Shown in pieces: positions 8,684 to 38,841 of a stretch of DNA of 64,000 nucleotides. The notes below the pieces were generated by a model. That model was not told the origin of the DNA. It made no database searches and saw only the letters and a list, made by a program, of their open reading frames with translations. How positions within the stretch are numbered: the first letter of the stretch is position 1; every line of letters begins with the position of its first letter. Source of the stretch: Bacteroidetes bacterium 2013_40CM_41_45 (GTDB taxonomy: Bacteria > Bacteroidota > Bacteroidia > AKYH767-A > 2013-40CM-41-45); contig NGFH01000001.1 of the NCBI GenBank assembly GCA_002215675.1, forward strand, positions 1-64,000, read 5' to 3'. A program made the translations under genes and the position numbers.

Positions 8684-8708
8684 GGTTTGAGGTTTGAGGT
8701 TTGAGGTT
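8684..8708 (+). repeat. Heptanucleotide tandem array (ggtttga)3.6
   Basis: ggtttgaggtttgaggtttgaggtt, 5 nt after the permease stop codon. Confidence 0.9.
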
Positions 8709-8742
8709 AAAATATCATCTCTTGCATTTCGTATATTCGTCC

Positions 8743-8758
8743 GTCAGCTGACGGATTC
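8743..8758. repeat. Perfect 16-nt palindrome TCCGTCAGCTGACGGA
   Basis: Read directly, just upstream of the ATG at 8764. A near-identical copy is at 39729. Confidence 0.75.
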
Positions 8759-8763
8759 GCACC

Positions 8764-9633
8764 ATGGAACAGGAAAAAAAACCGCGCAAACTAATTTACA
8801 GAAAGCTCAGCAATAAGTACCGGCTTGTGGTTATGAATGACGAGACGCTTGAAGAACGCGCCTCGTTCCGGCTGGCGCCTATGAATGTTTTTGTATCGGT
8901 CGGATTTATTTTCATCATACTTATTACAGCAACTATTTATCTTATTGCGTTCACCGGTTTGCGCGAATATATTCCCGGGTATGCAGATCCTGGTATGAAG
9001 AGAAAAGTCTTTCAGCTCAATCAAAAAACAGATTCGTTGCAGCGTGTGCTGGACTCACGTGAGTTGTATATGAGCAACATCAAAAATATTATGAATGGCA
9101 AAGTTGAAGGAAAACCGGAAAATAAATCCAACGCGTCTGTGCAGGCAAAGTATGATACGCTCCGAAGCCTTCCCAAGTCGAGAGAGGATTCTCTCTTTCG
9201 TCTTGAAATGGAGCGGCAGGATAAGGAGACCTTGAAAGGTTCAGCAGAAAAAAACGGGATTGGTGTTTTCTTTTTCTTTTCTCCTGTTAAGGGAACCATA
9301 ACTTCCGGTTTTGACGTCCGCGAAAAGCATTATGGGATTGATATTGTAGCCCCGGAGAATGAAGCTATCAAAGCTGCATCTGACGGAACGGTTGTATTTG
9401 CAAATTTCACTACCGAAACAGGATACGTAATTGCAATACAGCATGGCAATAATCTCCTTACTATGTATAAGCACAATTCTTCTCTCTTAAAAAAAACGGG
9501 AGACAGTGTGAAGGCGGGTGATGTGATTGCCATCATTGGTAACACGGGCGAACATACCACCGGGCCTCACCTTCACTTTGAATTGTGGTATAACGGAACA
9601 CCTGTTGACCCGCAGAAGTATGTTACCTTCTGA
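8764..9633 (+). CDS. M23 family metallopeptidase (LytM-like), membrane-anchored
   Basis: 289 aa. One TM, then FDVREKHYGIDIVAP...GPHLHFELWYNGTPVDPQKY. Confidence 0.9.
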   Translation: MEQEKKPRKLIYRKLSNKYRLVVMNDETLEERASFRLAPMNVFVSVGFIFIILITATIYLIAFTGLREYIPGYADPGMKRKVFQLNQKTDSLQRVLDSRELYMSNIKNIMNGKVEGKPENKSNASVQAKYDTLRSLPKSREDSLFRLEMERQDKETLKGSAEKNGIGVFFFFSPVKGTITSGFDVREKHYGIDIVAPENEAIKAASDGTVVFANFTTETGYVIAIQHGNNLLTMYKHNSSLLKKTGDSVKAGDVIAIIGNTGEHTTGPHLHFELWYNGTPVDPQKYVTF

Positions 9634-9650
9634 GACGGACAGTTGAAGTT

Positions 9651-11147
9651 ATGAGTTTACTTACAGCATCTGCAAGAATATTTGCAGCCTACACCGCTTC
9701 CCGTGTTCGAAAACGGAGCGCAAATGCTTTAACCACTCAGCAGAAAATTTTTCGTTCGCTGGTTGAAACAGGAAGCAAAACTTTTTTTGGAAAGGAACAC
9801 GGAATGAATTCTCTGATGCGCTATGATGAATTCAGAAAAAATATTCCTGTGAGAGGCTATGAAGGAATCCGGAAATACATAGAGAAAATTATTAATGGCG
9901 AAAGCGCTGTATTGTGGAAGGGAAAGCCGATGTATTTATCTAAAACATCGGGCACAACATCGGGAGTAAAATATATTCCCATCACGAAGGATTCTTTGCC
10001 CAATCATATCGGCACCACGCGCGAGGCGCTGGCAATGTATATCCATGAAACCGGCAAGACAGACTTCCTCAAAGGCAAGCTGATTTTTTTATCAGGCAGC
10101 CCTGAACTTGATTCTAAAAATGGAATTCCAACAGGGAGATTATCAGGAATCGTGAATCATCATGTGCCTGCGTACCTGAAGCGAAATCAATTGCCATCAT
10201 ACAAAACAAACTGCATCGAAGATTGGGAAGAGAAAGTGGAAAAAATCTGCGATGAAACTATCGGGCAGAATATGTCTCTCATCAGCGGCATTCCGCCCTG
10301 GGTGCAGATGTATTTTGATAAAATTACAGAGCGCACAGGAAAAAAAATCAAAGATACCTTCCCGGGATTTTCTCTTTTTGTTTATGGCGGAGTGAACTAT
10401 GAGCCATACAGGAAAAAACTGGAAGACAGCATCGGCAAAAAAGTGGATGCTATTGAATTATATCCCGCTTCTGAAGGGTTCATTGCTTACCAGGATTCTC
10501 AGAAGAGAAACGATTTACTGTTGAATACAGATTCGGGAATCTTTTATGAATTTATTCCTGTCTCAGAATATTTTGAGCCGAATCCACTGCGAGTTTCATT
10601 AAGTGATGTAAAGACCGGGATTAATTATACAATTGTGCTGAGCACCAATGCCGGCCTGTGGGCATACTCATTAGGCGACACGGTAAAATTCACTTCCATA
10701 AATCCTTACCGTATTTTAATCACAGGCAGAATCTCTCAATATATTTCTGCATTCGGAGAGCATGTAATTGTGGAGGAAGTGGAACAAGCTCTGCTTAAAA
10801 CGGTTTCGGAATTTCATGCCGAAGTGGTTGAATTCACCGTTGCCCCACAGGTCAATCCACAAGGCGAGCTTCCCTATCATGAGTGGTTCATCGAATTTTC
10901 CAAACCACCCGATGATATTAAGAAATTCGGTTCAGCGCTTGATGAATCACTTCAGCAGAAAAACATTTATTACCGCGATTTGATTGCAGGGAAAATAATA
11001 CAACCGCTGAAAATCCGTTTATTACAAAAAGACTCCTTTATCCGTTATATGAAATCCATTGGTAAACTGGGCGGGCAAAATAAAGTGCCCCGGCTTGCAA
11101 ACGACCGGAAAATTGCAGATGAAATTGCGCATTATGGTCTCCGTTAG
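9651..11147 (+). CDS. GH3 auxin-responsive promoter family protein (acyl-adenylating enzyme superfamily)
   Basis: 498 aa. SKTSGTTSGVKYIPIT, YPASEGF, YSLGDTVKF motifs. Confidence 0.85.
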   Translation: MSLLTASARIFAAYTASRVRKRSANALTTQQKIFRSLVETGSKTFFGKEHGMNSLMRYDEFRKNIPVRGYEGIRKYIEKIINGESAVLWKGKPMYLSKTSGTTSGVKYIPITKDSLPNHIGTTREALAMYIHETGKTDFLKGKLIFLSGSPELDSKNGIPTGRLSGIVNHHVPAYLKRNQLPSYKTNCIEDWEEKVEKICDETIGQNMSLISGIPPWVQMYFDKITERTGKKIKDTFPGFSLFVYGGVNYEPYRKKLEDSIGKKVDAIELYPASEGFIAYQDSQKRNDLLLNTDSGIFYEFIPVSEYFEPNPLRVSLSDVKTGINYTIVLSTNAGLWAYSLGDTVKFTSINPYRILITGRISQYISAFGEHVIVEEVEQALLKTVSEFHAEVVEFTVAPQVNPQGELPYHEWFIEFSKPPDDIKKFGSALDESLQQKNIYYRDLIAGKIIQPLKIRLLQKDSFIRYMKSIGKLGGQNKVPRLANDRKIADEIAHYGLR

Positions 11148-11218
11148 TACTTTTTTTATTTGTACATTAGCTATTCGTACCCAATACTTATTTTCGGCAA
11201 CTTAAAATTTTCTAGATT

Positions 11219-12373
11219 TTGAAAAAACGTATCGCTATACTCGGTTCAACGGGAAGCATTGGAAAGCAGGCGCTTGAAGTGATTGAAAGCCAGCCGCAGC
11301 ATTTCAGCGTTGAAGTCCTCACCTCAAACAACAATGCCGAACTTCTGATTGAGCAGGCAAGAAAATTTAATCCCAACGCTGTTGTTATAGCCGATGAAAA
11401 AAAATACGCGGAAGTAAAAAAAGCGCTTGAACCAACCGGCATTAAAGTTTTTGCGGGTAATGATTCGTTGTCACAAATCGTTTCTCTCGATTCTATTGAT
11501 ATTGTATTAACCGCGCTGGTAGGTTTTGCAGGATTGAAGCCCACGCTTGAGGCAATCAAAGCAGGAAAAGATATTGCACTTGCTAACAAGGAAACACTTG
11601 TTGTTGCAGGAGAACTTGTAACCACGCTGGCTAAAGAAAAGCAGACGCTGATTATACCGGTTGATTCGGAGCACTCGGCAATTTTTCAATGCCTGGTTGG
11701 TGAAACAGGAAACCGGGTTGAAAAAATTTACCTTACCGCATCGGGGGGACCTTTCCGCGGCAAAGACAAAAATTTCCTGAGCGCCGTCACCCGCGAACAG
11801 GCTTTGAAGCATCCTAACTGGACGATGGGCAATAAAATCACTATCGATTCTGCTACGCTTATGAATAAAGGACTTGAGATGATTGAAGCAAGGTGGTTGT
11901 TCGGCCTAAATCAATCACAGATTGATGTTGTGATTCATCCTCAATCTATAATTCACTCCATCGTTCAATTTGAAGATGGCTCCATGAAGGCGCAAATGGG
12001 TTTGCCTGATATGAAACTGCCGATTCAATATGCCCTTGGTTTTCCCCGAAGAATAAAATCCGGTTTCAAACGTTTTGATATCACTTCAAATTCTACTCTT
12101 ACGTTTGAAAAGCCCGATACAATAACTTTCCGTAACCTTGCGCTCGCACAGGAAGCATTAAGCCGGGGCGGAAATTTGCCATGTATTCTCAATGCTGCAA
12201 ACGAAGTGGCAGTGGAAGCATTTCTTAAAAGCCAGGTTGGTTTTTTAGAAATGAGTGAAATGATAGAAGATTGTATGCATAAAATTTCTTTCATCCATAA
12301 CCCGACTCTGGAGGATTATATGATGACGGATGGCGAAACGAGGAAACGCGCAACAGAACTGCTGCCGGCATAG
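11219..12373 (+). CDS. dxr: 1-deoxy-D-xylulose 5-phosphate reductoisomerase (TTG start)
   Basis: 384 aa. KKRIAILGSTGSIGKQALEVI, ALANKETLVVAGE, PVDSEHSAIFQCL, NHPNWTMGNKITIDSATLMNKGLE-like block. Confidence 0.95.
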   Translation: MKKRIAILGSTGSIGKQALEVIESQPQHFSVEVLTSNNNAELLIEQARKFNPNAVVIADEKKYAEVKKALEPTGIKVFAGNDSLSQIVSLDSIDIVLTALVGFAGLKPTLEAIKAGKDIALANKETLVVAGELVTTLAKEKQTLIIPVDSEHSAIFQCLVGETGNRVEKIYLTASGGPFRGKDKNFLSAVTREQALKHPNWTMGNKITIDSATLMNKGLEMIEARWLFGLNQSQIDVVIHPQSIIHSIVQFEDGSMKAQMGLPDMKLPIQYALGFPRRIKSGFKRFDITSNSTLTFEKPDTITFRNLALAQEALSRGGNLPCILNAANEVAVEAFLKSQVGFLEMSEMIEDCMHKISFIHNPTLEDYMMTDGETRKRATELLPA

Positions 12374-12431
12374 TACAACGGAGATTTGTTCACTCAATTT
12401 CCACTTTTTATTTTCAAATTACTTCAATTAA

Positions 12432-12459
12432 TAATCAATAAATAATAATCAATAATCAA
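12432..12459 (+). repeat. Heptanucleotide array (taatcaa)x4, one copy degenerate, ending 6 nt before the rseP ATG
   Basis: taatcaa taaataa taatcaa taatcaa. Confidence 0.85.
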
Positions 12460-12465
12460 TCATAG

Positions 12466-13782
12466 ATGAACGGTTTGGTGATGGCTGCCCAGTTACTCCT
12501 GGGACTTTCTATTTTAGTAATCCTGCATGAATTCGGGCATTATATTGCTGCGCGCGCATTCGGAATACGGGTCGAAAAATTTTTTCTTTTTTTCGATGCG
12601 TGGGGCATAAAACTTTTTAGCATTAAAAAAGGCGATACCGAGTATGGCATCGGCTGGCTGCCGCTTGGGGGCTATGTGAAAATTTCAGGAATGATTGACG
12701 AGAGCATGGACAAGGAGCAGTTAAAACTACCGCCGCAGCCCTGGGAATTTCGTGCAAAGCCAGCATGGCAGCGCCTTATAGTAATGATTGGCGGCGTCAC
12801 CATGAATGTGATTCTTGGTGTTGCTATTTACAGCTATATACTTCTTCACTATTCCGGAAAATATCTTCCTATTGAAAATGTTACGGATGGAATCTATGCC
12901 TACGAACTTGGAAGAGATGCCGGGTTGCAAACCGGAGACAAAATTGTGAGCTTTAATGGCGAAAAGATAGAACGCTTTGAAGACCTTCTTGGCAGTAAAG
13001 TTTTGTTTGGCGGAAAATTTACCGTAAACCGCAATGGAAAGCTGCTGGATATAACTGTTCCGGGTGACCTTTATAAAACGGTTGGCAAAAAAGGAAAAGG
13101 AAGATTTATAGAAGCTCATAATTACGTTTTTTATGTCGACAGCGTTGCCAAAGATTCTCCTGCGGAAAAAGCGGGGTTGAAAAAGGGCGACAAAATCATT
13201 TCTGTTAATGATACATTAATAGATACGTATGGGTTTTTCAGGGAAATGATCGGAGCAAACAAAAACAAAATGGTCGCATTGAAAATTTCAAGAGGTGGTT
13301 CCATCATGCAACTGCAGCCGCAACTCGATTCCAATGCCGTGCTTGGAATTTTTGCGACTCCTCCTGATTACAAATTGGCTGATTATTCCATAGCCTCCGC
13401 ATTACGATACGGAAGCGCCGATGCATTCGAAACTCTTGTTGCCAATGCCAAAGGATTGAAGAAAATTTTTACGGGCGAAGAAGATGCCCGCGAATCGCTG
13501 CAGGGCCCCATAGGTATTGCTACCATTTACGGAAGCATCTGGGAGTGGCATCGTTTCTGGATTATCACAGGGCTGCTCTCTATGATTCTTGCTTTCATGA
13601 ACATCCTTCCCATTCCTGCTCTCGATGGCGGGCATGTGATTTTCCTGGTTGTTGAAACGCTTACCGGGAAAAAATTCAGTGACAAATTCATGGAGAAGGC
13701 ACAGGTGGCCGGAATGATTATCCTGATTTCCCTTATGGTATTTGCCACCGGAAACGATATCTGGAAACATATTATCAGGTAA
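12466..13782 (+). CDS. rseP: RIP metalloprotease RseP (site-2 protease)
   Basis: 438 aa. HEFGHYIAAR, PDZ domains, NILPIPALDGGHVIF. Confidence 0.93.
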   Translation: MNGLVMAAQLLLGLSILVILHEFGHYIAARAFGIRVEKFFLFFDAWGIKLFSIKKGDTEYGIGWLPLGGYVKISGMIDESMDKEQLKLPPQPWEFRAKPAWQRLIVMIGGVTMNVILGVAIYSYILLHYSGKYLPIENVTDGIYAYELGRDAGLQTGDKIVSFNGEKIERFEDLLGSKVLFGGKFTVNRNGKLLDITVPGDLYKTVGKKGKGRFIEAHNYVFYVDSVAKDSPAEKAGLKKGDKIISVNDTLIDTYGFFREMIGANKNKMVALKISRGGSIMQLQPQLDSNAVLGIFATPPDYKLADYSIASALRYGSADAFETLVANAKGLKKIFTGEEDARESLQGPIGIATIYGSIWEWHRFWIITGLLSMILAFMNILPIPALDGGHVIFLVVETLTGKKFSDKFMEKAQVAGMIILISLMVFATGNDIWKHIIR

Positions 13783-13831
13783 ATAAGTTAAACCTGTTTG
13801 CCGACAGGCATTATAGCGTTTACTTATTTAC
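13779..13831. repeat. Nested inverted repeat: outer GTAAATAAGT/ACTTATTTAC, inner CCTGT-N6-ACAGG
   Basis: Fills the rseP to 13837 spacer. The right arm ends 5 nt before the next ATG. Confidence 0.8.
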
Positions 13832-13836
13832 TTTAG

Positions 13837-14589
13837 ATGAGAACCCTTCTGAAAATTGCGTTGCTCTTTATTGGGCTCGAAGTATTACCTTCTTTCACAA
13901 GTGTACTTCCGGGCGACTCTTCAAAAACCATTTTGCTTATTCCTTATCAGCCCCTGATGCATATTTCCGATGCCGATGCCGATATAGCGGAACAGTCTAA
14001 AATAAATGTGCGCCAGGTACGGGTGGTTATGCGCAATGCGCTGATAGAAAGGCTGACTTTTGCGCTGCGTGACAATTTTTATGTAAGACAGCTGACAGAA
14101 ATAGGAACTGCAAAAGAAAAAGATGATTTGAGAAATTTTTATGATTCAGAAAGTTTTTATTTAAGCAGCCGCGATACCAGCATGAGAAATACTGCAACTG
14201 TTTCTTCTGATTCTGAGAATCCTTACTTCGGCATCTTCAAGAAAAGTTCTTCTCCTGATTACGCTTCGTCATATATGAGTGTATCTCTCGGTAAGCCAAT
14301 TCTTTTTAGGGAGCTTTCTTCAGAATACAAAGCAGGTTATTTCCTGGTGCTTACCCAGTTTGAAATCAAAACGCATTACCACGAATGTATTGATATTCCC
14401 AATCATGTTTTCCGCAGAGAATTCCTGGTTCATTTTTCAGTTTTCGATGCTGAAGGAAAACAAACCGGTGGAACTGCAGTAAGCTACGATGCCGGTTCGG
14501 ACATGGACAGCATAAATAAAATTACCGGCAATATTTTCCCTGAGCTGGCGGTAAAAATATGCAGATACGTTTCTGCGGCAACACAATAG
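13837..14589 (+). CDS. Hypothetical secreted protein
   Basis: 250 aa. N-terminal signal peptide; no family recognised. Confidence 0.7.
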   Translation: MRTLLKIALLFIGLEVLPSFTSVLPGDSSKTILLIPYQPLMHISDADADIAEQSKINVRQVRVVMRNALIERLTFALRDNFYVRQLTEIGTAKEKDDLRNFYDSESFYLSSRDTSMRNTATVSSDSENPYFGIFKKSSSPDYASSYMSVSLGKPILFRELSSEYKAGYFLVLTQFEIKTHYHECIDIPNHVFRREFLVHFSVFDAEGKQTGGTAVSYDAGSDMDSINKITGNIFPELAVKICRYVSAATQ

Positions 14590-14667
14590 TTGTTCCCTCC
14601 GTCTTAGTTTAAATATTTTTTTGTCGCGTAGATTGTTTTATACCTTTACGCGGCACGTTTAATTTTT

Positions 14668-17031: not shown

Positions 17032-17055
17032 CAGAATAACCTATAACTTTCGCCC

Positions 17056-17919: not shown

Positions 17920-17998
17920 TGTTTAGCGCTTAAATGTCCCTGGCACATAGTTCTATAGGGAGAATTCGTAAATTCGTGCCCGACAGCCAATTGACAGA

Positions 17999-19922: not shown

Positions 19923-20606
19923 TTATTTGCTTTTACCAAGCTGTTTCATCAAATCCCAAATCGCAAAAAGTATTACCGTTTCTCCGGCGCAAAACAACAG
20001 CCAGTTAAAACTCTGCGGCACAAAACGCGCGACTGCATCCTGCAGTTTTTCTGAAGCTGTAGAATAGGCAAGCATCGTATAATCCTGGACAAAAGAAACC
20101 AGCACGAGCAGCGAACCGCAAACAAGAAGCCATAGCTGAAGCCGGGAAAATTTTACGGAATATTTTTTTGAGGAATAGAAAAATATTATTCCCGCAAGGA
20201 GCAGCATGGTTACAGAACAAATTACGGGAGCAACTACCGGTGACGCCCACACAACGGGAATCAGGAACAGAACATCCCACTCAAAAAAACCACCAGGCCA
20301 CCCGAGCGACATCTTCAGCAATAGATAATACACCAAATCCCAGACAGCAAATCCCCAGATAAACCCTGCAAAGCGAAGCATTGATTTTTGAAACGCGGCG
20401 GCGGCAACTGCAAAAAGCATAAGCAATGTTGCCGCTTCGCGGATGAGCTCGGTAAAAAAAATTGAAGGTTCGAACGTTTTTAGAGGAAACAAAGCCAGTT
20501 CGCCCGGGTAATAAATCTTACGGAGATATATCACCACAGAACCCTCCACAATTCCAAATGCCGCTGCAAAAAGAGTGAGCCAGAAAAGCTTGTCACGAAT
20601 GGTCAT
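19923..20606 (-). CDS. Hypothetical multi-pass membrane protein
   Basis: 227 aa, about six hydrophobic segments. Confidence 0.7.
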   Translation of the reverse strand: MTIRDKLFWLTLFAAAFGIVEGSVVIYLRKIYYPGELALFPLKTFEPSIFFTELIREAATLLMLFAVAAAAFQKSMLRFAGFIWGFAVWDLVYYLLLKMSLGWPGGFFEWDVLFLIPVVWASPVVAPVICSVTMLLLAGIIFFYSSKKYSVKFSRLQLWLLVCGSLLVLVSFVQDYTMLAYSTASEKLQDAVARFVPQSFNWLLFCAGETVILFAIWDLMKQLGKSK

Positions 20607-20618
20607 GATATCAAAAAA

Positions 20619-20695
20619 GTTATTTGTTATCAGTTATCCGTTAACGGAAAATCAAATATAAAATTACAGATAACTAATAATGGATAACGAATAAC
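20619..20695. repeat. Inverted heptamer arrays (GTTATNN)x4 and (NNATAAC)x4
   Basis: gttattt gttatca gttatcc gttaacg at 20619-20646; agataac taataat ggataac gaataac at 20668-20695. Fills the spacer between two - strand genes. Confidence 0.85.
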
Positions 20696-20698
20696 GAT

Positions 20699-22450
20699 TC
20701 AATCCACATCCAGGTCGAAAAGTTTTTTCATCTCGTTCAGCTTCGGGTTGCGCTCTGCCAACCATTTGAATTTGTCAGCCGCCGAGTATGGCTTGTCGAT
20801 CTTGTTTTCATCCTTCGCCACTTCTATGTTGAGCGTGAGAGAAGGCCTCCCCATTGACTTTCGCAGGTGTTCCATCAAATCGGGTTTAAGCAGGTTGAAA
20901 TCTTTTTCAAGGGAAGCATTATCCACCAAAAAAGAAATCGCCTGCTCATCGCTCCACTTGGGTTTTCGTTTCGTCATGGCAGAATGCAGGGCCATTTTGC
21001 CTTGTTTAAAAAGTTTTTCGCCAAAAATATTCCACAACTGCTGAAGAGGGGGCTTAGCCGTTTCACTTAGAACATCATCCAGTCCGCTCGCTTCTAAAAG
21101 TGAAGACGAAACTGCTTCAGAAGTTTGCGGCTGCTTTATAGATGACTCTTCCTTGATGGAAATAGTTTTCGGAACAACAGATAAACGTGCTTCTGCCGGT
21201 TTAACGGGCTGTGGTTCTTGTTCATGCGCAACAGAAGGCGTTGCAGGTTTTACATCATATGCTTTCTGCGATAGGACTGCTGCCTCGATTTTAGCTGCAG
21301 GTTCTTGTGCCTCTACGCTACTTTTTTTTTTCTCCTCCTCAACCGGAATTAAAGACGGCTTCGCCAGCATGCACATTTTAAGAAGTGAAAGTTCAACATG
21401 CAACCGCTGGTTCTGCGCAGAGCGATAACTTGTATCGCAGCGGTTTGCTTCTTCCAAAAGTGTAAATAACAAGGCCGGAGTACATTGCTGCGATTGGGAC
21501 AGATATTTTTCGCGTATGCCTTCGCTCACTTCAAGCAATTCAACGGTAACCGCGTCTTTACATACTAGCAGGTTACGGAAGTGAGACGATAAGCCAGCAA
21601 TAAAATGATGCCCGTCAAAACCGATCGCAAGAATTTCATCGAAAGTCCGAAGCACGGAGGAAGTATTTCCTGTCAGAATCTCCTCTGTTACCCGGAAAAA
21701 ATAATCATAGTCGAGAATATGCAGGTTATCTATGACCGATTTGTAGGTGAGTTTGTTTCCGCCAAAACTTACCAGCCGGTCGAAGATGGAAAGTGCATCG
21801 CGCAGTGCTCCGTCTGCTTTAAGAGCTATCATGTGAAGCGCATCTTTTTCTGCATTCACTCCTTCATTAGAAGCAATCAGCGCAAGATGGCTGGCAATGT
21901 CATCAACTGTTATTCTTCCGAAATCATAAATCTGGCAACGAGAAAGAATAGTCGGGATGATTTTATGCTTCTCGGTTGTCGCCAAAATAAATACAGCATA
22001 AGATGGCGGCTCTTCAAGGGTTTTCAGGAATGCATTGAACGCACTTCCCGAGAGCATGTGAACTTCGTCTATAATATAGACTTTATATTTTCCGCCTACC
22101 GGGGCGTAGCGAACCTGCTCAACGAGGGAACGGATATCTTCAACCGAATTATTGGAAGCGGCGTCAAGCTCAAAGATATTCAGTGACTGCCCGCTGTTGA
22201 ATGTCTCGCAGGATGTGCAGGTATTGCATGGTTCAAAATCAGGAGTAACATTCAGGCAGTTGATTGTCTTGGCAAGAATACGGGCGCAGGTGGTCTTCCC
22301 TACTCCGCGCGGGCCGGTGAAAAGAAATGCATGGGCAAGGTGATTATTGCGGATAGCATTTTTAAGGGTGGATGTAATAGCTTGCTGGCCAACAACGGTA
22401 TTAAACGTCATCGGGCGATACTTGCGGGCCGATACAACAAAATTTTCCAT
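20699..22450 (-). CDS. dnaX: DNA polymerase III subunit gamma/tau; the ORF extends to 22513 but MENFVVSARKYRP at 22450 is the likely start
   Basis: AFLFTGPRGVGKTTCARILAK, Cys cluster CNTCTSC, VYIIDEVHMLS. Confidence 0.95.
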   Translation of the reverse strand: MENFVVSARKYRPMTFNTVVGQQAITSTLKNAIRNNHLAHAFLFTGPRGVGKTTCARILAKTINCLNVTPDFEPCNTCTSCETFNSGQSLNIFELDAASNNSVEDIRSLVEQVRYAPVGGKYKVYIIDEVHMLSGSAFNAFLKTLEEPPSYAVFILATTEKHKIIPTILSRCQIYDFGRITVDDIASHLALIASNEGVNAEKDALHMIALKADGALRDALSIFDRLVSFGGNKLTYKSVIDNLHILDYDYFFRVTEEILTGNTSSVLRTFDEILAIGFDGHHFIAGLSSHFRNLLVCKDAVTVELLEVSEGIREKYLSQSQQCTPALLFTLLEEANRCDTSYRSAQNQRLHVELSLLKMCMLAKPSLIPVEEEKKKSSVEAQEPAAKIEAAVLSQKAYDVKPATPSVAHEQEPQPVKPAEARLSVVPKTISIKEESSIKQPQTSEAVSSSLLEASGLDDVLSETAKPPLQQLWNIFGEKLFKQGKMALHSAMTKRKPKWSDEQAISFLVDNASLEKDFNLLKPDLMEHLRKSMGRPSLTLNIEVAKDENKIDKPYSAADKFKWLAERNPKLNEMKKLFDLDVD

Positions 22451-22463
22451 GGGTGAAGGGGAA

Positions 22464-22471
22464 CAAATGTA
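22464..22471 (-). promoter_or_regulatory. -7 element TACATTTG upstream of dnaX
   Basis: Reverse-strand TACATTTG, 13 nt before the proposed ATG. Confidence 0.45.
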
Positions 22472-22511
22472 AATTTTTATCCCTATAAATTTCAGGACGA
22501 AATAAAAAGAC

Positions 22512-22534
22512 AAAAGCCCCGATACGAGGCTTTT
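22512..22534 (-). terminator. Rho-independent terminator downstream of the 22558-23532 gene
   Basis: Reverse strand AAAAGCC..GGCTTTT stem followed by a T-rich tract. Confidence 0.75.
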
Positions 22535-28538: not shown

Positions 28539-28556
28539 CTACGTATCTATAAAATA

Positions 28557-30461: not shown

Positions 30462-30585
30462 GATAAGTGATTTTTAAGTTAGACGATTCATTGACTATGA
30501 TGATGTAAAATTTTTATTAAGGGGAAACAAAAGTAGAAAGAAATAATTAATGGCAAAAAAGAAGAGGGGAAACAGGGTTCTGATG

Positions 30586-32010
30586 CTATTTTACTCTGCT
30601 CAATTTCACCATGTTAGCCGTTCCGCGCTCCGAAAGAGGGATGCTTGCAATATTGACAAGAATGTCGTTTTCCTGGAGAATTTTCTTCTCTTTTAAAATC
30701 TTCTGTATGTCAGAAATGGTTTCGTCTGTGCTTACATAACGGTCGTAATAGAATCCCCGCACACCCCAGACTAAACTCAAAACAGTAAGCAGCGGGAGGT
30801 TATCTGTAAAGATAATTACGCTTGCTGATGGCCGTTGCGAGGTCACCCGAAAAGCCGTATAACCGGAGCGTGTCATACCTGCAATTACTTTCGCTCCCAC
30901 CTGAGATGCCATCGCACATGCACTGAAGCAAACCGAATCTGAAATGAAGGTCGGAGAGTCTGCAGCTGGCTGGTGCAGTCGGTTATACTTGTAATTCTTT
31001 TTCTCAACGGTGGCAATGATGTTTTGCATGTACTCCACTGCTTTCACCGGGAACTTGCCAATCGAAGTTTCTCCGCTCAGCATCACTGCATCCGCACCGT
31101 CAATCACCGAATTTGCAACATCGTTTACTTCAGCGCGCGTAGGACTGTAGTTTGTAATCATACTCTCCATCATCTGCGTTGCAATAATGACAGGGCGCGA
31201 TGCCTGCAAACATTTCTTCACCAGCATTTTCTGAATCAGCGGAACTTCTTCCATCGGCATCTCCACTCCCAAATCCCCGCGGGCTACCATTACTGCATCG
31301 GATTCCCTGATAATATTATCAATATCATTCAGCGCTTCTGGCTTTTCTATTTTGGCAATGACTTTTGTGAAGTTCCCTTTCTTGGAAATGATCTCTTTAA
31401 GTATGTGAATGTCCTGAGCAGTTCTTACAAATGATAATCCAATCCAATCAACATTTTGTTCCAGGGCAAATGATAAATCTTCGTGGTCTTTTTCCGTGAG
31501 TGATGGCAATGAAATTTTTGTATGTGGCAGGTTCACGCCTTTTCGCGGCAAAAGAGTTCCTCCGTTCACCACTACTGCCTTCACGGTATTCTCCATGTTG
31601 GTTTCAATAGCGGTAAGCTGAATTTTGCCGTCATCAATAAGGATATTTTCTCCAGCCTGCACATCGTGCGGAAATCGGTCGTAGTTAATGTGGATTTTTT
31701 CTTTTGTACCGGGAGTGTCATCGGTGGTAAGAATGATGCTCTCCCCTATCTCCAGTTCAATTGAGCCGCCTACAATATCGCCCACGCGAATTTTCGGTCC
31801 CTGTAAATCAACAAGCACAGCTGCATTGTGATTATGCTTCGCATTCAGCTTTCTGATGTCAGAAATTACCTGGCTGAATTCTCCATAGGTTCCATGTGAT
31901 GAGTTAAGGCGAAACACATCCACACCGGCAATCAATAGCTCCTCTAGTATTTTTTCAGATGAAGATGCGGGGCCTATGGTGGCTATAACTTTGGTACGAT
32001 TGAACAGCAT
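30586..32010 (-). CDS. pyk: Pyruvate kinase
   Basis: 474 aa. RTKVIATIGPASSS, VARGDLGVEMP, TRAEVNDVANSVIDGADAVMLSGETSIGKFP. Confidence 0.97.
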   Translation of the reverse strand: MLFNRTKVIATIGPASSSEKILEELLIAGVDVFRLNSSHGTYGEFSQVISDIRKLNAKHNHNAAVLVDLQGPKIRVGDIVGGSIELEIGESIILTTDDTPGTKEKIHINYDRFPHDVQAGENILIDDGKIQLTAIETNMENTVKAVVVNGGTLLPRKGVNLPHTKISLPSLTEKDHEDLSFALEQNVDWIGLSFVRTAQDIHILKEIISKKGNFTKVIAKIEKPEALNDIDNIIRESDAVMVARGDLGVEMPMEEVPLIQKMLVKKCLQASRPVIIATQMMESMITNYSPTRAEVNDVANSVIDGADAVMLSGETSIGKFPVKAVEYMQNIIATVEKKNYKYNRLHQPAADSPTFISDSVCFSACAMASQVGAKVIAGMTRSGYTAFRVTSQRPSASVIIFTDNLPLLTVLSLVWGVRGFYYDRYVSTDETISDIQKILKEKKILQENDILVNIASIPLSERGTANMVKLSRVK

Positions 32011-32088
32011 ATATAAGTTGACTAAGTTAATTAAGTCAAATGGTTAATTTAGGTTTCAAAAATTATTTTTTGATTAATAATTCACTCA

Positions 32089-32511
32089 TCAAAAAATAAA
32101 CCGCTCTCCCGTCTTGATTTTTTCCGGTTCCAGATGATATGCTCCCAGCACAACGGGAATAGTGCGCAGCTGTTTTTCAAGCTGTAACATCTCGTGCATC
32201 GGTACAGGTTCCCGCACCATAAAAAAGTAATCGATATTTTTGTATTCGGCAATAAACAATCCGTTTGATGTTTTATTTGTAAGAATAAAATATTCATTCC
32301 CGAAACCATCCTTGTATTCGAAACGCGATGTTTTGATTTTGTCTTTTCCTTTGTTGAGTGTCAGTTCCAAATCTCCGGTGCGTTCAAGCGAAAGATTCAA
32401 TGCATGGTTCAGTTCAAAGCATAAACGGTAATCGTGGTGCTGACAAATAATACCAAACAGCATAAAATCATAAGCCGCCTTTGTGTCTGTCTTTAAAACA
32501 TGCTTAGCCAT
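32089..32511 (-). CDS. IPExxxVDY family protein
   Basis: 140 aa. Conserved position between rnc and pyk in Bacteroidota; NIDYFFMV motif region. Confidence 0.75.
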   Translation of the reverse strand: MAKHVLKTDTKAAYDFMLFGIICQHHDYRLCFELNHALNLSLERTGDLELTLNKGKDKIKTSRFEYKDGFGNEYFILTNKTSNGLFIAEYKNIDYFFMVREPVPMHEMLQLEKQLRTIPVVLGAYHLEPEKIKTGERFIF

Positions 32512-32658
32512 AGTACGAATAACGGGTGCGAATAACGAATGGTTGCGAATTTACGAATTACGAATCCAGTGCTAATTGGAGCGCATTCGTAAACCTGCCT
32601 GCCATTGCGCTGGCCAAAGAATTGGCAGGCAGGTTCGAAAAGATTAGTTATTCGTACT
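32512..32658. repeat. 147-bp palindromic spacer element: 12-bp terminal inverted repeats, 7-nt-like array, and a central 13-bp stem hairpin
   Basis: AGTACGAATAAC (32512-32523) and GTTATTCGTACT (32647-32658); AACCTGCCTGCCA (32592-32604) and TGGCAGGCAGGTT (32623-32635). Confidence 0.9.
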
Positions 32659-33420
32659 CTATATGCCAAGGGCTTTGCACGCCATCTCCGAAGCAGTTTC
32701 CTCCGCACGCTTTTTGGAGAAGTCCTCGCCTTTGCCCGACTCGTTGCCGCCTACGAAAACAATTACACGGAAAAGTTTTTTGCCCCCGCTTTCAAATTCT
32801 TCAAAGAGCTCGAACAAAACTTTTTTCTTTTCGCGCTGGGACCAATTAATAAGACGGCTCTTGAAGCTCAGCTCTGTTCTTTGCAGTTCATCCAGGTCAA
32901 CATGGTGGCGGATGATGCGGTCGAGAATAAATTCTTTTGCCCTGTTATAGCCATAATCTATATACACTGCCCCGATAAGAGCTTCAAAGGCATCACCATA
33001 TGTTGAACGATGGAGCTGCTGCGCATTTCCCTGCGTGTTGATGAAAAAATCCATGCCTGTTTTTTTTGCAAGCCGTCCCAGGTGCTCGCGGTTTACCAGC
33101 TTGGAGCGCATCTCGGTTAAAAATCCTTCTTCCTGAAAAGGAAATTTTTTGAAAAGCATCTCAGCAATCACTGCACCCAGTATGGCATCACCCAGGTATT
33201 CCAACCGCTCATTGCTCGACTTCGTTCCATTGGCAGCGCCCGACACAAAAGTGTGGGGGGTGAAGGCAAGCTTGTAGAGCGAAACATTAAGCGGAACAAA
33301 ACCCAAAAGATTTTTCAGCGAGCGGACAAACTTGCGCTCACGTGATAAATACAGATTGTACGCGGCTCTAAATAAGTTCAACAGTGAAAAAAACTTTCCG
33401 AATTCTATGTAGAAAGTCAT
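32659..33420 (-). CDS. rnc: Ribonuclease III
   Basis: 253 aa. NERLEYLGDAILGAVIAE, GDAFEALIGAVYIDYGY. Confidence 0.95.
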   Translation of the reverse strand: MTFYIEFGKFFSLLNLFRAAYNLYLSRERKFVRSLKNLLGFVPLNVSLYKLAFTPHTFVSGAANGTKSSNERLEYLGDAILGAVIAEMLFKKFPFQEEGFLTEMRSKLVNREHLGRLAKKTGMDFFINTQGNAQQLHRSTYGDAFEALIGAVYIDYGYNRAKEFILDRIIRHHVDLDELQRTELSFKSRLINWSQREKKKVLFELFEEFESGGKKLFRVIVFVGGNESGKGEDFSKKRAEETASEMACKALGI

Positions 33421-33421
33421 T

Positions 33422-33491
33422 GGTCATTGGTCATTGGTCATTGGTTTTTTGGAACCTTAATTTTAATGACTAATGGCTAATGGCTAATGAC
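33422..33491. repeat. Inverted heptamer arrays (ggtcatt)x3 and (taatgrc)x4 flanking a spacer
   Basis: 33422-33442 ggtcatt x3; 33464-33491 taatgac taatggc taatggc taatgac. Spans the rnc-fabF spacer. Confidence 0.9.
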
Positions 33492-33505
33492 TATTTATCT
33501 TCTAT

Positions 33506-34756
33506 TCATTCATACTTCTTAAAAATCACACTTGCATTATGCCCTCCAAACCCAAAGGTATTGCTTAATGCAGCACGCACGGTTCTCTTCTGCGCTTTAT
33601 TGAATGTAAAGTTAAGCCGTGAGTCAAACTGGGGGTCATCGGTAAAGTGATTTATCGTTGGGGGAATAATTCCTTCTCTAATCGCCATGATAGATGCGAT
33701 GGATTCTATAGCTCCTGCTGCTCCCAGCAAATGTCCCGTCATGGATTTGGTCGAGCTTATGTTCAGCTTGAAAGCGCTGTCGCCAAACACGCTGATGATT
33801 GCTTTTGTTTCGCTGATGTCGCCCAGCGGTGTGGATGTGCCGTGAACGTTGATGTAGTCAATATCTTCCGGTTTCATTTGTGCATCTTCCAATGCCATAC
33901 GCATTACGTTAAGTGCGCCAAGCCCTTCGGGATGCGGAGCAGTAATATGATATGCATCTGCCGATAGGCCGCCCCCCACTATTTCAGCATAAATTTTTGC
34001 ACCTCTTTTCTTGGCGTGTTCCAGGTCTTCAAGGATGATACAGCCCGCACCTTCACCCAACACAAAACCATCCCTGTCCAAATCAAACGGACGTGAAGCC
34101 GTTTCAGGTGAATCATTTCTTTCACTCAAGGCATGCATGGCGTTGAATCCTCCTATACCTGCCTCGGTGATAGCCGCTTCCGAACCGCCCGAAACAAAAA
34201 TATCTGCCTTGCCCAGTCGGATATAATTGAATGAATCAATCAGTGCATGAGTTGACGAGGCGCAGGCAGAAACAGTGGAAAAATTCGGTCCGCGAAAACC
34301 GTAGCGTATGGAGATATGACCCGGGGCAATGTCCGCTATCATCTTGGGAATAAAGAATGGATTGAAGCGTGGCGTGCCGTCACCTTTGGCAAAGTTGCTC
34401 ACCTCTTCCTGGAACGTCCTAAGCCCACCAATACCCGCACCCCATATTACTCCCGTCCTGTCAGGATTCACTTTAGCAGGCTCAATGCCGGCATCTTTCA
34501 GCGCTTCATCGGTGCTGCCAATGGCAAAATGGACAAACGGGTCCATCTTGCGGGCTTCTTTGCGGTCTAATAAAGTTCCGGGGTCAAAGTTCTTTACCTC
34601 GCAGGCAAAGCGCGTCTTGAATTTTGAGGCATCAAAACGCTGTATGGGTGCGGCTCCGCTTTTTCCGCCAATAAGTCCTTCCCAATACTCTTTCAGGGAA
34701 TTACCCAGCGGGGTAATGGCGCCAAGGCCGGTTACTACAACCCTTCGCAGTTCCAT
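33506..34756 (-). CDS. fabF: Beta-ketoacyl-ACP synthase II
   Basis: 416 aa. RRVVVTGLGAITPLG, VSACASSTHAL, NVHGTSTPLGD, NTFGFGGHN. Confidence 0.97.
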   Translation of the reverse strand: MELRRVVVTGLGAITPLGNSLKEYWEGLIGGKSGAAPIQRFDASKFKTRFACEVKNFDPGTLLDRKEARKMDPFVHFAIGSTDEALKDAGIEPAKVNPDRTGVIWGAGIGGLRTFQEEVSNFAKGDGTPRFNPFFIPKMIADIAPGHISIRYGFRGPNFSTVSACASSTHALIDSFNYIRLGKADIFVSGGSEAAITEAGIGGFNAMHALSERNDSPETASRPFDLDRDGFVLGEGAGCIILEDLEHAKKRGAKIYAEIVGGGLSADAYHITAPHPEGLGALNVMRMALEDAQMKPEDIDYINVHGTSTPLGDISETKAIISVFGDSAFKLNISSTKSMTGHLLGAAGAIESIASIMAIREGIIPPTINHFTDDPQFDSRLNFTFNKAQKRTVRAALSNTFGFGGHNASVIFKKYE

Positions 34757-34774
34757 GATATTGAACCGGAAGTG

Positions 34775-35014
34775 TTATTTACCGGCCGATTTTTCGATAT
34801 ATTCTATGGCTTGACCAACGGTAGAGATTTTCTCTGCCTGGTCGTCAGGTATGGCTATATTGAATTCCTTTTCAAACTCCATAATGAGTTCAACAGTGTC
34901 GAGCGAGTCGGCACCAAGGTCGTTGGTAAAGCTGGCTTCATTGGTAACTTCCTTTGCCTCAACGCCAAGCTTGTCAACAATAATGGATTTAACTTTTTCT
35001 GCAATATCAGACAT
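34775..35014 (-). CDS. acpP: Acyl carrier protein
   Basis: 79 aa. [20 protein letters not shown]. Confidence 0.97.
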
Positions 35015-35222
35015 GGTAAAAGTGGTTTAAAAGTTTGTGCAAAGTAAACAATTTGTAATTGATAAAAACAAATGAAAATATTTTGTTAAAAGTTTAGGAA
35101 ACAGCCTGTTGGATGTCTTACAATCCACCTGCCCGCTTTCCGGTCGCTGAAGCTCCCTACAATCGGGTTTAGCCGTCAGCGGTGGGAAGGCGCACAACCG
35201 TTTACATTATCATACCTCCAAC

Positions 35223-35284
35223 GACTTTAGGGACTTTTACGACACTTAATTATTTATGTCCTTAATGTCCCACGTGTCCTTGAA
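35223..35284. repeat. Inverted period-9 arrays (GACnnnnnn)x3 and (GTCnnnnnn)x3
   Basis: gac at 35223, 35232, 35241; gtc at 35258, 35267, 35276. Confidence 0.7.
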
Positions 35285-35319
35285 AAACTTGCATGGCAAA
35301 AATAATAGCACACTGATGA

Positions 35320-35360
35320 CCTGCCTGCCGATGCTAAAGCCCCGTGCTGTGGCAGGCAGG
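35320..35360. repeat. Hairpin CCTGCCTGCC..GGCAGGCAGG
   Basis: Perfect 10-bp stem, 21-nt loop; same core as 32592-32635. Confidence 0.85.
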
Positions 35361-35400
35361 CACGGAAAACAGGGATTGACGCGGATTTTTTCTGCTATTT

Positions 35401-35703
35401 TCATCCTCCTGCAACTCTATCACTTGGATTGGGTTTTTTTGATTTAATAATTATTTGAACAGTAAATATAATTAATGAAAATCCAATCATTAAGTGCGGA
35501 ATAAACGTTGGATAACTGCCCTGAAAAAATATTTGATAAAGAATTATTTCTGATAAGGTAATCAAAGTAAAAATAATAAAAGTAAATACCCAACTTAAAA
35601 TAGATTTTCTTTTCAAGGAGATGAAAATTGTTCGCAAGATTATGAAAAGCCCAATTATACTAGGGAGTAAAAACCACAAATAAAACTCTGGGCTTGAAAG
35701 CAT
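35401..35703 (-). CDS. Hypothetical membrane protein
   Basis: 100 aa, three hydrophobic segments; lies in a low-density region. Confidence 0.45.
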   Translation of the reverse strand: MLSSPEFYLWFLLPSIIGLFIILRTIFISLKRKSILSWVFTFIIFTLITLSEIILYQIFFQGSYPTFIPHLMIGFSLIIFTVQIIIKSKKPNPSDRVAGG

Positions 35704-35748
35704 TTTTACTTCTGTGTTTTCAGTACAAATATATCAAACAGCACTGTC

Positions 35749-35821
35749 ATGCTGACAAAGGTCAGCATCCCCTTGTTAGCGCTATTCTTACTTTCTTTTG
35801 CTTAGACCAAAAGAAAGTAAG
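35749..35821. repeat. Compound hairpin region: ATGCTGAC-AAAG-GTCAGCAT and CTTACTTTCTTTTG-N7-CAAAAGAAAGTAAG
   Basis: 8-bp stem at 35749-35768; perfect 14-bp stem at 35787-35800/35808-35821. Confidence 0.88.
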
Positions 35822-35962
35822 CAAAGAAAAGTCAAGCCAAAAAAATGGGTCATCCGCACATGCCCTATGCTTTCCTCCCTTTTTTGGCGGGCGGGCGCGC
35901 AAAAAAAATCACTCCGTAAGAGTGACATACATGTAGTCCTGCGGGGATGTTCACAAACTTTT

Positions 35963-35993
35963 TTTGAAATTTAATAATTGAAACGTAGGTTTG
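35963..35993 (+). promoter_or_regulatory. Bacteroidota sigma-70-type promoter TTTG-N19-TAGGTTTG
   Basis: TTTG 35963-35966, exactly 19 nt, TAGGTTTG 35986-35993; AT-rich 5' UTR before the ATG at 36031. Confidence 0.85.
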
Positions 35994-36030
35994 TTACCCG
36001 TAATAATTTTTAATCTATAAAATATAAAAA

Positions 36031-36297
36031 ATGCTATTCAAAGTAAATGTAGGTCATGCAGGTGTAATGACTTTGAAGGACGGCACCAAAGTAAACTATG
36101 GGGTAAAGAGAATTACTAACGATATGCAAACGATGGTGTACTACACAGGGAAGGGTTTGCGTGAAATGTTCAAGCCAAACATGAACGAAGAAGAAAAAGT
36201 AATTGCGACTGAATTGCAAAAGCTTGATGAAGGCTCCTTGATGAAGGTAGGAAATCTTGCGAAGATTTCTTTGACGGATATTAAAGAAATGGAATAA
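36031..36297 (+). CDS. Small protein of unknown function (88 aa)
   Basis: Canonical promoter and AT-rich leader ctataaaatataaaaaATG; Lys/Met-rich, no recognised domain. Confidence 0.75.
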   Translation: MLFKVNVGHAGVMTLKDGTKVNYGVKRITNDMQTMVYYTGKGLREMFKPNMNEEEKVIATELQKLDEGSLMKVGNLAKISLTDIKEME

Positions 36298-36348
36298 TTT
36301 TTCGACTAACTGCTAATGGCTTTTGGAAATTAAATGCGTCTTGCGTGT

Positions 36349-36978
36349 TCAAGACTCATTCTTTGTTAGATTCTTTTCATATTCCTTACAATCTTTTAAT
36401 AGCCTTAATATTTCTTCCTTTTCCTGGGTTAATGTACCTGGGATTTTTTCAACTGATTTTTTTACAGCCTCTAAATTATGTACTGCTTTTGAATCTAAAG
36501 ATTTTACTTTAGCTAGTATTGCGTTTACACAAGTTCGAATGAATCTTTCCTCTTCTAATGCAATACCGTTATCTAAAGCGGCAGCCCAGTAATAAATGGC
36601 ATGAGATTCTAATTTGCTAGACGTTGAATGAAGAGCTAGTGACCTGTTGATATTTTTTTCCATCCATAAGAATCTTCTGTCATATCTCAGGGTATGTTCT
36701 TCTACCGCTAGCGCAAGCTTCTCTTTCAGTATTCTTTGTATCTCCGGTTGTTTTTTTTCCAATTCCTCTTTAATAGCCTCGTTAATGTATTTGGTTGCGC
36801 CTTCTTTATTCCACCACCATTGATAAATTATAAGACCGCCTGCTATAGTCAACATTAGACCCGCGATGCCTAAAAGAGCATAAAGAGTATTTGTATAATA
36901 AGAATTCTGTTGCTCTAGTAAGGCTTTATACAGAGCAATAATTCGATCAGTGGATTGTGAGGAATCAATATTAATCAT
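36349..36978 (-). CDS. Hypothetical single-pass membrane protein with coiled-coil-like region
   Basis: 209 aa. TM YTNTLYALLGIAGLMLTIAGGLIIYQWWW followed by charged helices. Confidence 0.6.
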   Translation of the reverse strand: MINIDSSQSTDRIIALYKALLEQQNSYYTNTLYALLGIAGLMLTIAGGLIIYQWWWNKEGATKYINEAIKEELEKKQPEIQRILKEKLALAVEEHTLRYDRRFLWMEKNINRSLALHSTSSKLESHAIYYWAAALDNGIALEEERFIRTCVNAILAKVKSLDSKAVHNLEAVKKSVEKIPGTLTQEKEEILRLLKDCKEYEKNLTKNES

Positions 36979-37170
36979 AAAGTTAACTTTGTCGATGTAG
37001 GAGTGTCATTTAGACAAATGTATCATTTTGAGAGAACTCCGACCGTTCGTGCATAGACCTGATTGAGGGGAGCTCCCGCGACCCGAAAGCAGGACGGTAT
37101 GTTGTGAGAATTGGTGATGTTCATCTCCAATACTTCGACAAGCTCAGTATGGCAGGGTATTGATTCTTTC

Positions 37171-37226
37171 AACCAGAAACCAGAAACCAGAAACCAGAAA
37201 CCAGAAACCAGAAACCAGAAACTGAA
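37171..37226 (+). repeat. Heptanucleotide array (aaccaga)x7 plus one degenerate copy
   Basis: Seven exact units at 37171-37219, then aactgaa; directly upstream of the glyS promoter -7. Confidence 0.95.
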
Positions 37227-37234
37227 TACATTTG
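37227..37234 (+). promoter_or_regulatory. Putative -7 element TACATTTG directly before the glyS ATG
   Basis: TACATTTG followed by cggcATG; abuts the heptamer array. Confidence 0.5.
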
Positions 37235-37238
37235 CGGC

Positions 37239-38807
37239 ATGGCTAATTCCGAAGACCTTTTTAAAAACATTATATCCCACGCCAAAGAGTACGGGTTTAT
37301 TTTTCAGTCGTCAGAAATTTATGACGGGTTGAGCGCTGTGTACGATTACGGGCAAAATGGCTCGCTGCTGAAAAACAATATCCGCGAGTATTGGTGGAAG
37401 GCGATGGTGCAGCTCAACGAAAACATTACGGGTATTGACGCCGCTATTTTTATGCATCCTACTACGTGGAAAGCCAGCGGGCACGTGGATGCTTTTAACG
37501 ACCCGCTCATAGACAACCGCGACTCGAAGAAACGGTATCGTGCCGATGTGCTTATTGAAGAGCACGTTGCCAAAATTGAAGCCAAGATTGAGAAAGAAGT
37601 GGAGAAGGCGGCAAAGCGTTTTGAAAATTTTGATGCGGTGCTTTACCGCACTACTAACCCGCGCGTGGCAGAATACCAAAAAAAGATTGATGAAATAAAC
37701 CTGCGCTTTAAAACCGCCCTGGAGACGGGTGATTTGGCGGAAGTGAAACAGATTATTGTGGACTGCGAAATTGTAGACCCCGTGAGCGGCACGCGCAACT
37801 GGACGGACGTGCGGCAGTTTAACCTGATGTTCTCTACGCAGATGGGCTCGGTGACGGAAGACGCTAATGTCATTTACCTGCGCCCCGAAACCGCGCAGGG
37901 AATTTTTGTCAACTTTTTGAACGTGCAAAAAACGGGGCGCATGAAAATTCCGTTCGGCATTGCGCAGACGGGAAAGGCGTTCCGCAATGAAATTGTAGCG
38001 CGGCAGTTTATCTTCCGCATGCGGGAGTTTGAGCAGATGGAGATGCAATATTTTGTAAAGCCCGGAACAGAAATGGAATGGTACAACCGCTGGAAAGAAA
38101 AGCGGATGAACTGGCACCGCACTCTTGGCATCCCTGCAGAGAAATACCGCTTCCACGACCATCTGAAGCTGGCTCACTACGCCAACGCTGCCTGCGACAT
38201 AGAGTTTGAATTTCCGTTTGGCTTCAAAGAGTTGGAAGGTATTCACTCGCGAACGGATTTTGATTTAAAAAATCACGAAAAATTTTCAGGCAAAAAGCTC
38301 CAGTACTTCGACACAGACGACAACCAAAACTACATTCCTTACGTGGTGGAAACGTCTATTGGGCTTGACCGCATGTTTCTTGCCGTGCTTTCACATTCAT
38401 ACAAAGAAGAAAAATTCGCCTCAGCGAATCCGTCCTCTGGCGGACTGTCTGACGGCTCTAAACGCGTTGTGCTGCAAATTCCGCCTTTCCTTGCACCAAT
38501 AAAAGTTGGAGTGTTTCCACTAGTCGCCAAAGACGGCTTGCCCGAAAAAGCGCATGAGATTTTTAACACACTTCGCTACGAACAGCAATGTTTTTACGAG
38601 GAGAAAGATACCATCGGCAGGCGCTACCGCAGGCAGGATGCTATTGGCACTCCGTATTGCATCACCATCGACCACCAGACTTTACAGGATAACACCGTCA
38701 CCCTCCGCGACCGCGATACGATGCAACAGGAACGAATTAATGTGAGCGAAGTAAGCAGGGTTGTGAATGAGAAAGTGGATGTAAGGCAGTGGTTGAAGAG
38801 GTTGTAG
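37239..38807 (+). CDS. glyS: Glycyl-tRNA synthetase
   Basis: 522 aa. SSEIYDGLSAVYDYGQNGSLLKNNI, LRPETAQGIFVNF, IGRRYRRQDAIGTP. Confidence 0.95.
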   Translation: MANSEDLFKNIISHAKEYGFIFQSSEIYDGLSAVYDYGQNGSLLKNNIREYWWKAMVQLNENITGIDAAIFMHPTTWKASGHVDAFNDPLIDNRDSKKRYRADVLIEEHVAKIEAKIEKEVEKAAKRFENFDAVLYRTTNPRVAEYQKKIDEINLRFKTALETGDLAEVKQIIVDCEIVDPVSGTRNWTDVRQFNLMFSTQMGSVTEDANVIYLRPETAQGIFVNFLNVQKTGRMKIPFGIAQTGKAFRNEIVARQFIFRMREFEQMEMQYFVKPGTEMEWYNRWKEKRMNWHRTLGIPAEKYRFHDHLKLAHYANAACDIEFEFPFGFKELEGIHSRTDFDLKNHEKFSGKKLQYFDTDDNQNYIPYVVETSIGLDRMFLAVLSHSYKEEKFASANPSSGGLSDGSKRVVLQIPPFLAPIKVGVFPLVAKDGLPEKAHEIFNTLRYEQQCFYEEKDTIGRRYRRQDAIGTPYCITIDHQTLQDNTVTLRDRDTMQQERINVSEVSRVVNEKVDVRQWLKRL

Positions 38808-38813
38808 AGTGGT

Positions 38814-38841
38814 GAGTGATGATTGATGAATGATGAATTGC
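38814..38841 (+). repeat. Heptamer array gagtgat gattgat gaatgat gaattgc
   Basis: Period 7, 6 nt after the glyS stop codon. Confidence 0.75.

Follow-up and report, generated by a model that had tools for sequence, protein, structure and literature searches.

Inverted pairs of heptanucleotide tandem arrays in intergenic gaps of a Bacteroidota genome

The first 64,000 nucleotides of contig NGFH01000001.1 from Bacteroidetes bacterium 2013_40CM_41_45 (GenBank assembly GCA_002215675.1), here referred to as the window, contain several short tandem arrays with a 7-nt period, some of which are arranged as inverted pairs in the gap between two genes. Among the closest described systems are the TAACTGA repeats, found together with other heptamers in Gramella, Aequorivita, Flexibacter, Elizabethkingia and Paludibacter, and as direct repeats also in marine Beggiatoaceae and Cyanobacteria (MacGregor 2015, PMC4679880). 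In Flexibacter litoralis, one TAACTGA set is located just after a stop codon, in reverse orientation (PMC4679880). The initial annotation of the window stated that no equivalent of its arrays was known in Bacteroidota, which the record from these five genera contradicts; the phenomenon, as framed there, had already been described. The TAACTGA repeats have the same core as the most frequent arrays of the source genome (TAACTGA is a rotation of ATAACTG), and both are short, mostly intergenic and located in forward orientation close upstream of gene starts. However, the TAACTGA repeats consist of one fixed unit and are almost only direct, with one indirect case reported, whereas the source genome contains a unit with two free positions (ATAACNN), arrays that face each other, and many unrelated units with the same layout.

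Heptanucleotides are the commonest long simple repeats in most of the genomes studied by Mrazek (2007, as cited in PMC4679880 and PMC4692102), who proposed slippage in 7-nt steps (as quoted in PMC4679880). The source genome shares with those repeats the period-7 excess, the diversity of units and the mostly noncoding location, and its AACCAGA, AGGTTTG and ATTGCGG arrays fit that description, whereas the ATAACNN arrays lack the pattern of like neighbouring units and are paired in inverted orientation. Heptamers of the type GGGNATC/GGGGAYT in Xanthomonas and Nostoc were read as quadruplex formers (Rehm 2015, PMC4692102), and inverted pairs of G-rich heptamer arrays were noted in Xanthomonas (PMC4692102). 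These also combine fixed and variable heptad positions and are intergenic, but they are G-rich, while the source arrays are AT-rich without G-runs. The parS site of plasmid pSM19035 is likewise composed of contiguous 7-bp sites, direct or inverted, and is fully active only with four or more contiguous heptads (PMC9499535); it is a plasmid centromere with a known binder, whereas the source heptads are dispersed in the chromosome with no binder known.

Enterobacterial REP palindromes are similar in being intergenic, also between genes of one operon, but the source pairs have neither a common palindrome sequence nor a matching transposase pattern, and their stem is made of tandem heptads. The comparison with the short tandemly repeated repetitive (STRR) sequences of heterocystous cyanobacteria, proposed in the initial annotation, was a fair one: both comprise dispersed, short tandem arrays of several different heptanucleotides (43 unit classes in the source genome), although the hosts belong to different phyla. 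Inverted pairing is not known for STRRs. One STRR unit is presumably TTGGTCA, which is the GTCATTG unit of position 33416 in another rotation; the literature search did not confirm this STRR unit.

Inverted pairs and their turnover

The complete ATAACNN elements have the layout (GTTATNN)n, a 17-42 nt spacer and (NNATAAC)n, mostly with 3-4 heptads per arm; 24 complete inverted pairs were found, with 0 everted and 0 direct. The arrangement was not restricted to this unit. Among neighbouring arrays of any unit, defined as 8-100 bp apart in all the Bacteroidia DNA analysed (n = 63), an inverted match was found in 40/63 and a direct match in 1/63, while random array pairs from different loci match in ~2% each way. 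For ATAAC units, 25 neighbours were inverted matches, none was a direct match and 3 were unrelated; for all other units, the corresponding counts were 15, 1 and 19. Shuffled-flank tests agreed with the inverted pairing. Further matched arms were GAAAGGT/ACCTTTC, TGAGATA/TCTCAAA and TGAGTTT/AAACTCA, in addition to GTCATTG/TAATGAC in the window, indicating that the unit is free but that both arms of one element match.

Across the class, the GTTAT..ATAAC inverted pair was present in 18/295 genomes and the everted order in 1/295. No recognisable sequence common to the copies was found in the spacers or at NN, and the cores alone are shared. As RNA, the elements fold with a mean z of -4.2, but arms in inverted orientation will fold in any case, so that this value adds no separate support. 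In the literature searched, which mostly excluded subscription journals, no description of this architecture with free units was found apart from the G-rich Xanthomonas pairs, nor of the independence of neighbouring NN or of unit exchange at orthologous junctions.

Of the 22 pairs in the source genome with both neighbours called (gene starts being approximate), 20 have co-directional genes on both sides, and the distances to the stop codon and to the next start are often just 0-16 nt. Pairs occupy gaps between usually co-transcribed genes, such as nusA|infB in the source genome and groES|groEL and atpA|atpG in the genus g25 described below, and in other lineages (G084/G122, G180, G093 and G125) they also hug gene edges. 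For complete pairs, the rule that ATAAC faces a start and GTTAT follows a stop is a consequence of arm order and was given no weight. Only the unpaired arms are informative in their own right: by approximate start calls, unpaired ATAAC arrays no more than 25 nt from a start were forward in 13 cases and backward in 1, and those after stop codons followed no orientation rule (8 vs 8); some of these arms may have degenerate partners. For non-ATAAC arrays at gene edges, an orientation rule was weak or absent (9 vs 5 at starts, 9 vs 7 at stops).

The elements turn over rapidly. Orthologous junctions were compared within one genus (g25) of another family (f8), where three species have a GTTATNN pair in the groES|groEL gap and two have a period-8 GATTTNNN pair there. 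In the same genus, the genes atpA and atpG are separated by 9 nt in four species, whereas in two the gap measures 60-78 nt and contains a pair. Three comparisons of orthologous elements showed changes at 2/100 core positions, 5/26 NN positions and 11/110 other aligned positions plus gaps; since core positions were defined from just one member of each sequence pair, the core figure is biased towards conservation. Same-family relatives of the source genome had 0-9 ATAACNN triplet matches, and for two of these relatives the reversed control gave a count just as high. One genome of another family in the same order had 117 ATAACNN triplets, which among the matches listed were almost only ATAACTC. 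Lineage dialects were observed, with ATAACTC in G019 and ATAACTT/ATAACTC in G084 and G122.

Other palindromic insertions were present or absent at orthologous junctions in or after the atp operon of genus g25 (L228/L229/L231/L226), for example GTCATTGCGAGC..GCAATGAC and TGAACTTGTTTCAG..CTGAAACAAGTTCA. Among noncoding period-8 arrays in relatives, 5/6 have an inverted partner, including those of Mucilaginibacter at L125:4255-4345, L122:13971-13999 and L136:13830-13866, indicating that the step is not strictly 7.

The period-7 excess and the spaced unit ATAACNN

In a sample of 1.65 of the 3.38 Mb of the source genome, 42 exact period-7 runs (at least 12 consecutive period matches; 23 noncoding) were found, vs 0-5 at periods 4-6 and 8-13. 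When mismatches were tolerated, period 7 gave 100 arrays, 60 of them noncoding, compared to 0-16 at other periods from 4 to 13 and 0-3 in six dinucleotide shuffles. The sharp genome-wide peak predicted in the initial annotation is therefore present, and the spectrum is not flat. The coding/noncoding split relies on simple open reading frame (ORF) calls with approximate gene starts, and stop-free arrays get absorbed into ORFs, which inflates the count of arrays in ORFs. Noncoding autocorrelation showed local peaks at lags 7, 14 and 21. No period-7 arrays were detected in 200 kb of E. coli K-12. With 10.9 arrays per 100 kb, vs 5.9 in the rest, the window is just modestly rich. The closest fabF relatives are Bacteroidota; in 80 of these, with up to 21 kb around fabF, the peak was weaker but present (27 arrays, 22 noncoding).

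The 100 arrays belong to 43 rotation/strand unit classes, in agreement with the diversity of units that had been claimed for the window. As also claimed there, the arrays are not all copies of a single mobile consensus. However, ATAACNN accounts for 29/100 arrays and dominates the noncoding ones, so that the 43 classes are not all independent.

The word ATAAC-NN-ATAAC occurs 152 times (both strands, overlaps counted), vs 4-10 occurrences at spacings that are neither 7 nor twice 7. In arrays detected by period alone, adjacent units mismatch in 49% and 15% of cases at the two NN positions, respectively, and in 0-6% at the core positions. Adjacent NN were identical in 13/73 cases, with a fraction of 0.137 expected if independent, and NN was TG in just 6/152 steps, so that the unit is rarely MacGregor's TAACTGA. 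Because recent slippage would leave like neighbours, ATAACNN is a spaced motif rather than a plain microsatellite, and simple slippage does not seem to explain this family. The proposal of a process that generates 7-mers is consistent with the exact single arrays but fails, as far as slippage is concerned, for ATAACNN.

In the G084 and G122 loci (L245-L254), NN alternates between TC and TT in a 14-nt higher-order repeat, with adjacent NN identical in just 3/16 and 0/12 cases, respectively, vs ~0.5 expected.

Arrays of the window

The window arrays were checked with Tandem Repeats Finder (TRF) and by direct reading. Among those listed in the initial annotation, four were exact, one was near-exact and three were degenerate, while its two weak loci (32512-32570 and 36305) were marginal, with a TRF score of just 33 at 32546-32565 and no TRF call at score 30 for 36305. 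Two of the listed loci, 20619-20695 and 33416-33493, are inverted pairs, an arrangement that had been overlooked, as had the nature of the commonest unit as the spaced motif ATAACNN.

The pair at 33416-33493 is composed of an exact GTCATTG array (x4.3; 33416-33445) as left arm and a near-exact array of TAATGRC (TAATGAC/TAATGGC, x4.3, 91%; 33464-33493) as right arm, with a predicted fold of -19.1 kcal/mol. Its upstream neighbour is fabF (33506-34756, minus strand) and its downstream neighbour is rnc, encoding RNase III (32659-33420, minus strand), the true start of which is uncertain and possibly inside or after the array. The gap between fabF and the next gene in the 80 relatives did not contain any such pair. 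In the 20619-20695 pair, the left arm reads GTTATTT GTTATCA GTTAT (20619-20637), and its partner reads ATAACTA ATAATGG ATAACGA ATAAC (20670-20695), with one degenerate unit; the TRF array at 20618-20643 is degenerate, with 78% matches. As RNA this pair folds on either strand, at ~-17 kcal/mol. It is flanked upstream, 3 nt off, by dnaX (20699-22513, minus strand; NF011531), and downstream, 12 nt off, by a 227-aa ORF without family match (19923-20606, minus strand).

Of the remaining arrays, the three exact ones are single. The exact AGGTTTG array (x3.7; 8683-8708) is located 4 nt past an ABC-2 permease gene (7530-8678), and a search for an inverted partner found none. The exact AACCAGA array (x7.4; 37171-37222), the sole locus of this triplet in the genome, lies 16 nt before glyS (37239-38807), and a degenerate TGAATGA array (89% matches; 38813-38838) follows the same gene. 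A degenerate AATCAAT array (82% matches; 12426-12460) is found 5 nt before a gene for an RseP-like protease (12466-13782). The exact ATTGCGG array (x4.6; 59229-59260, minus strand) is inside the phosphoglucose/phosphomannose isomerase gene (58344-59363), where it is in frame and codes for TIRNPQSAIRN directly ahead of the first conserved strand of the isomerase. As a 7-nt unit does not amount to whole codons, one unit gained or lost would shift the frame, and the array could be a contingency locus.

At gathering score, Rfam identified only tRNAs in the window, L031, L034, L041 and L067, with no known RNA family at the arrays. In several places of the genome, mostly noncoding, the palindrome TAGGGTTTTCCCTA (or TAGGGAAAACCCTA) was found at 36- and 22-base steps (L009:16362-16433, L010:15294-15368, L022:18646-18723, L023:179-256, L025:11316-11389 and L040:18419-18490). 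This resembles a regulatory or repeat element with three sites, not related to the heptads.

Possible origin and role of the arrays

The reading that we favour, with a probability of about 0.4, is that two populations of arrays coexist: exact single arrays produced by slippage, and inverted pairs that would be intergenic stem-loops, rebuilt fast, with cores under selection and probably acting in the transcript. The AACCAGA, AGGTTTG and ATTGCGG arrays look like ordinary slippage-born heptanucleotide repeats, and the GTCATTG array is likewise exact, its neighbouring units alike as slippage leaves them. The second class consists of two oppositely oriented arrays of the same unit, which is 7 or sometimes 8 nt long, filling the gap between genes, and the stem would be a row of 5-bp helices with 2-nt unpaired steps between them. 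Such elements may be gained, lost and rebuilt quickly via local duplication and inverted copying. Their cores would be kept by selection, most likely since the stem-loop acts in the transcript, where it could separate or stabilise neighbouring cistrons, as REP palindromes can.

Several observations weigh against this. The two arms show no covariation at NN (31 Watson-Crick pairs vs 33.0 in shuffles), which rules out base pairing via NN and confines pairing to the cores. The fixed order GTTAT..ATAAC is unexplained by folding alone, because both orders pair equally. In the four other lineages, the gaps are co-directional in 11/20, divergent in 5/20 and convergent in 4/20 cases, at loci picked for holding a pair and not for gene order. 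A co-directional bias is thus true in the source genome but is rejected as a general rule, and a role between cistrons of one mRNA is inapplicable in divergent and convergent gaps.

All the arrays, paired or not, might instead be a functionless mutational signature, tolerated outside genes, in which slippage at 7-nt steps (Mrazek's polymerase footprint) is combined with template switching that makes inverted copies. Slippage of this kind would fit the exact single arrays, the diverse units and the rapid turnover at one junction, and the lineage-specific dialects (G019, G084 and G122) and the presence of some arrays in ORFs point the same way. We nevertheless consider it rather unlikely: it would not produce independent adjacent NN next to a fixed core, a core that changes more slowly between species than NN and the remaining aligned positions, or a fixed arm order, and a general polymerase footprint is insufficient given that E. 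coli has no peak in 200 kb. Alternatively, the ATAACNN pairs might be operators for a DNA-binding protein that recognises two facing rows of 5-bp cores repeated every 7 bp, much as ParB (omega) of pSM19035 reads heptads. The five fixed and two free positions, the 3-4 contiguous heptads per arm, the fixed arm order, the need of parS for at least four such heptads, direct or inverted (PMC9499535), and the context independence in other lineages are consistent with this proposal. It is nonetheless improbable, as one sequence-specific protein would not tolerate the same layout with unrelated units, or a swap of the unit in both arms among the groES|groEL junctions of a single genus, and no binder was identified. 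An RNA-binding protein with an RRM domain was ruled out as the array reader, as the source genome has no RRM match. RRM_1 was found once or twice in each of seven same-family relatives tested, which hold few or no such arrays.

The occupied and 9-nt atpA|atpG sites within one genus, together with the other palindromic insertions at neighbouring junctions there, could also reflect the insertion of REP- or MITE-like, non-autonomous mobile palindromes into intergenic gaps. The chances of this are slight, since the copies have no recognisable common sequence in spacers or NN, and Y1 transposases do not track the elements, being present in similar numbers in pair-free genomes; REP mobility through RAYT transposases thus found no support. 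The source genome has one Y1 transposase match, which is interrupted by a stop. Finally, the arrays could be all-frame stop barriers: three successive heptads with TAA or TGA close every frame, as 7 is not a multiple of 3, and ATAACNN and CAATGAC have a stop in every unit. The forward bias of unpaired ATAAC arrays near starts is in line with this, but those past stop codons follow no orientation rule, AACCAGA, ATTGCGG and AAATCCG have no stop, and the A and C outside TAA are almost as conserved as TAA itself. A stop barrier alone was ruled out because too much of the core is conserved, and as a general explanation it is highly improbable.

Extending the favoured reading of selected stem-loops beyond the source genome is more doubtful. 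A Bacteroidia-wide class of intergenic stem-loops is conceivable, in which the architecture would be conserved and the unit free, exchangeable in both arms at an orthologous junction; some process would write matching heptads into both arms, and selection would keep the elements at gene boundaries.

An excess of period 7 in bacteria has been on record since 2007, its cause untested, and paired, inverted and sequence-flexible arrays add constraints on any explanation, including one family, ATAACNN, that is hard to square with simple slippage. Within a single genus, the orthologous groES|groEL and atpA|atpG junctions come in short, occupied and re-written states, which opens both the birth and the function of these elements to direct tests.

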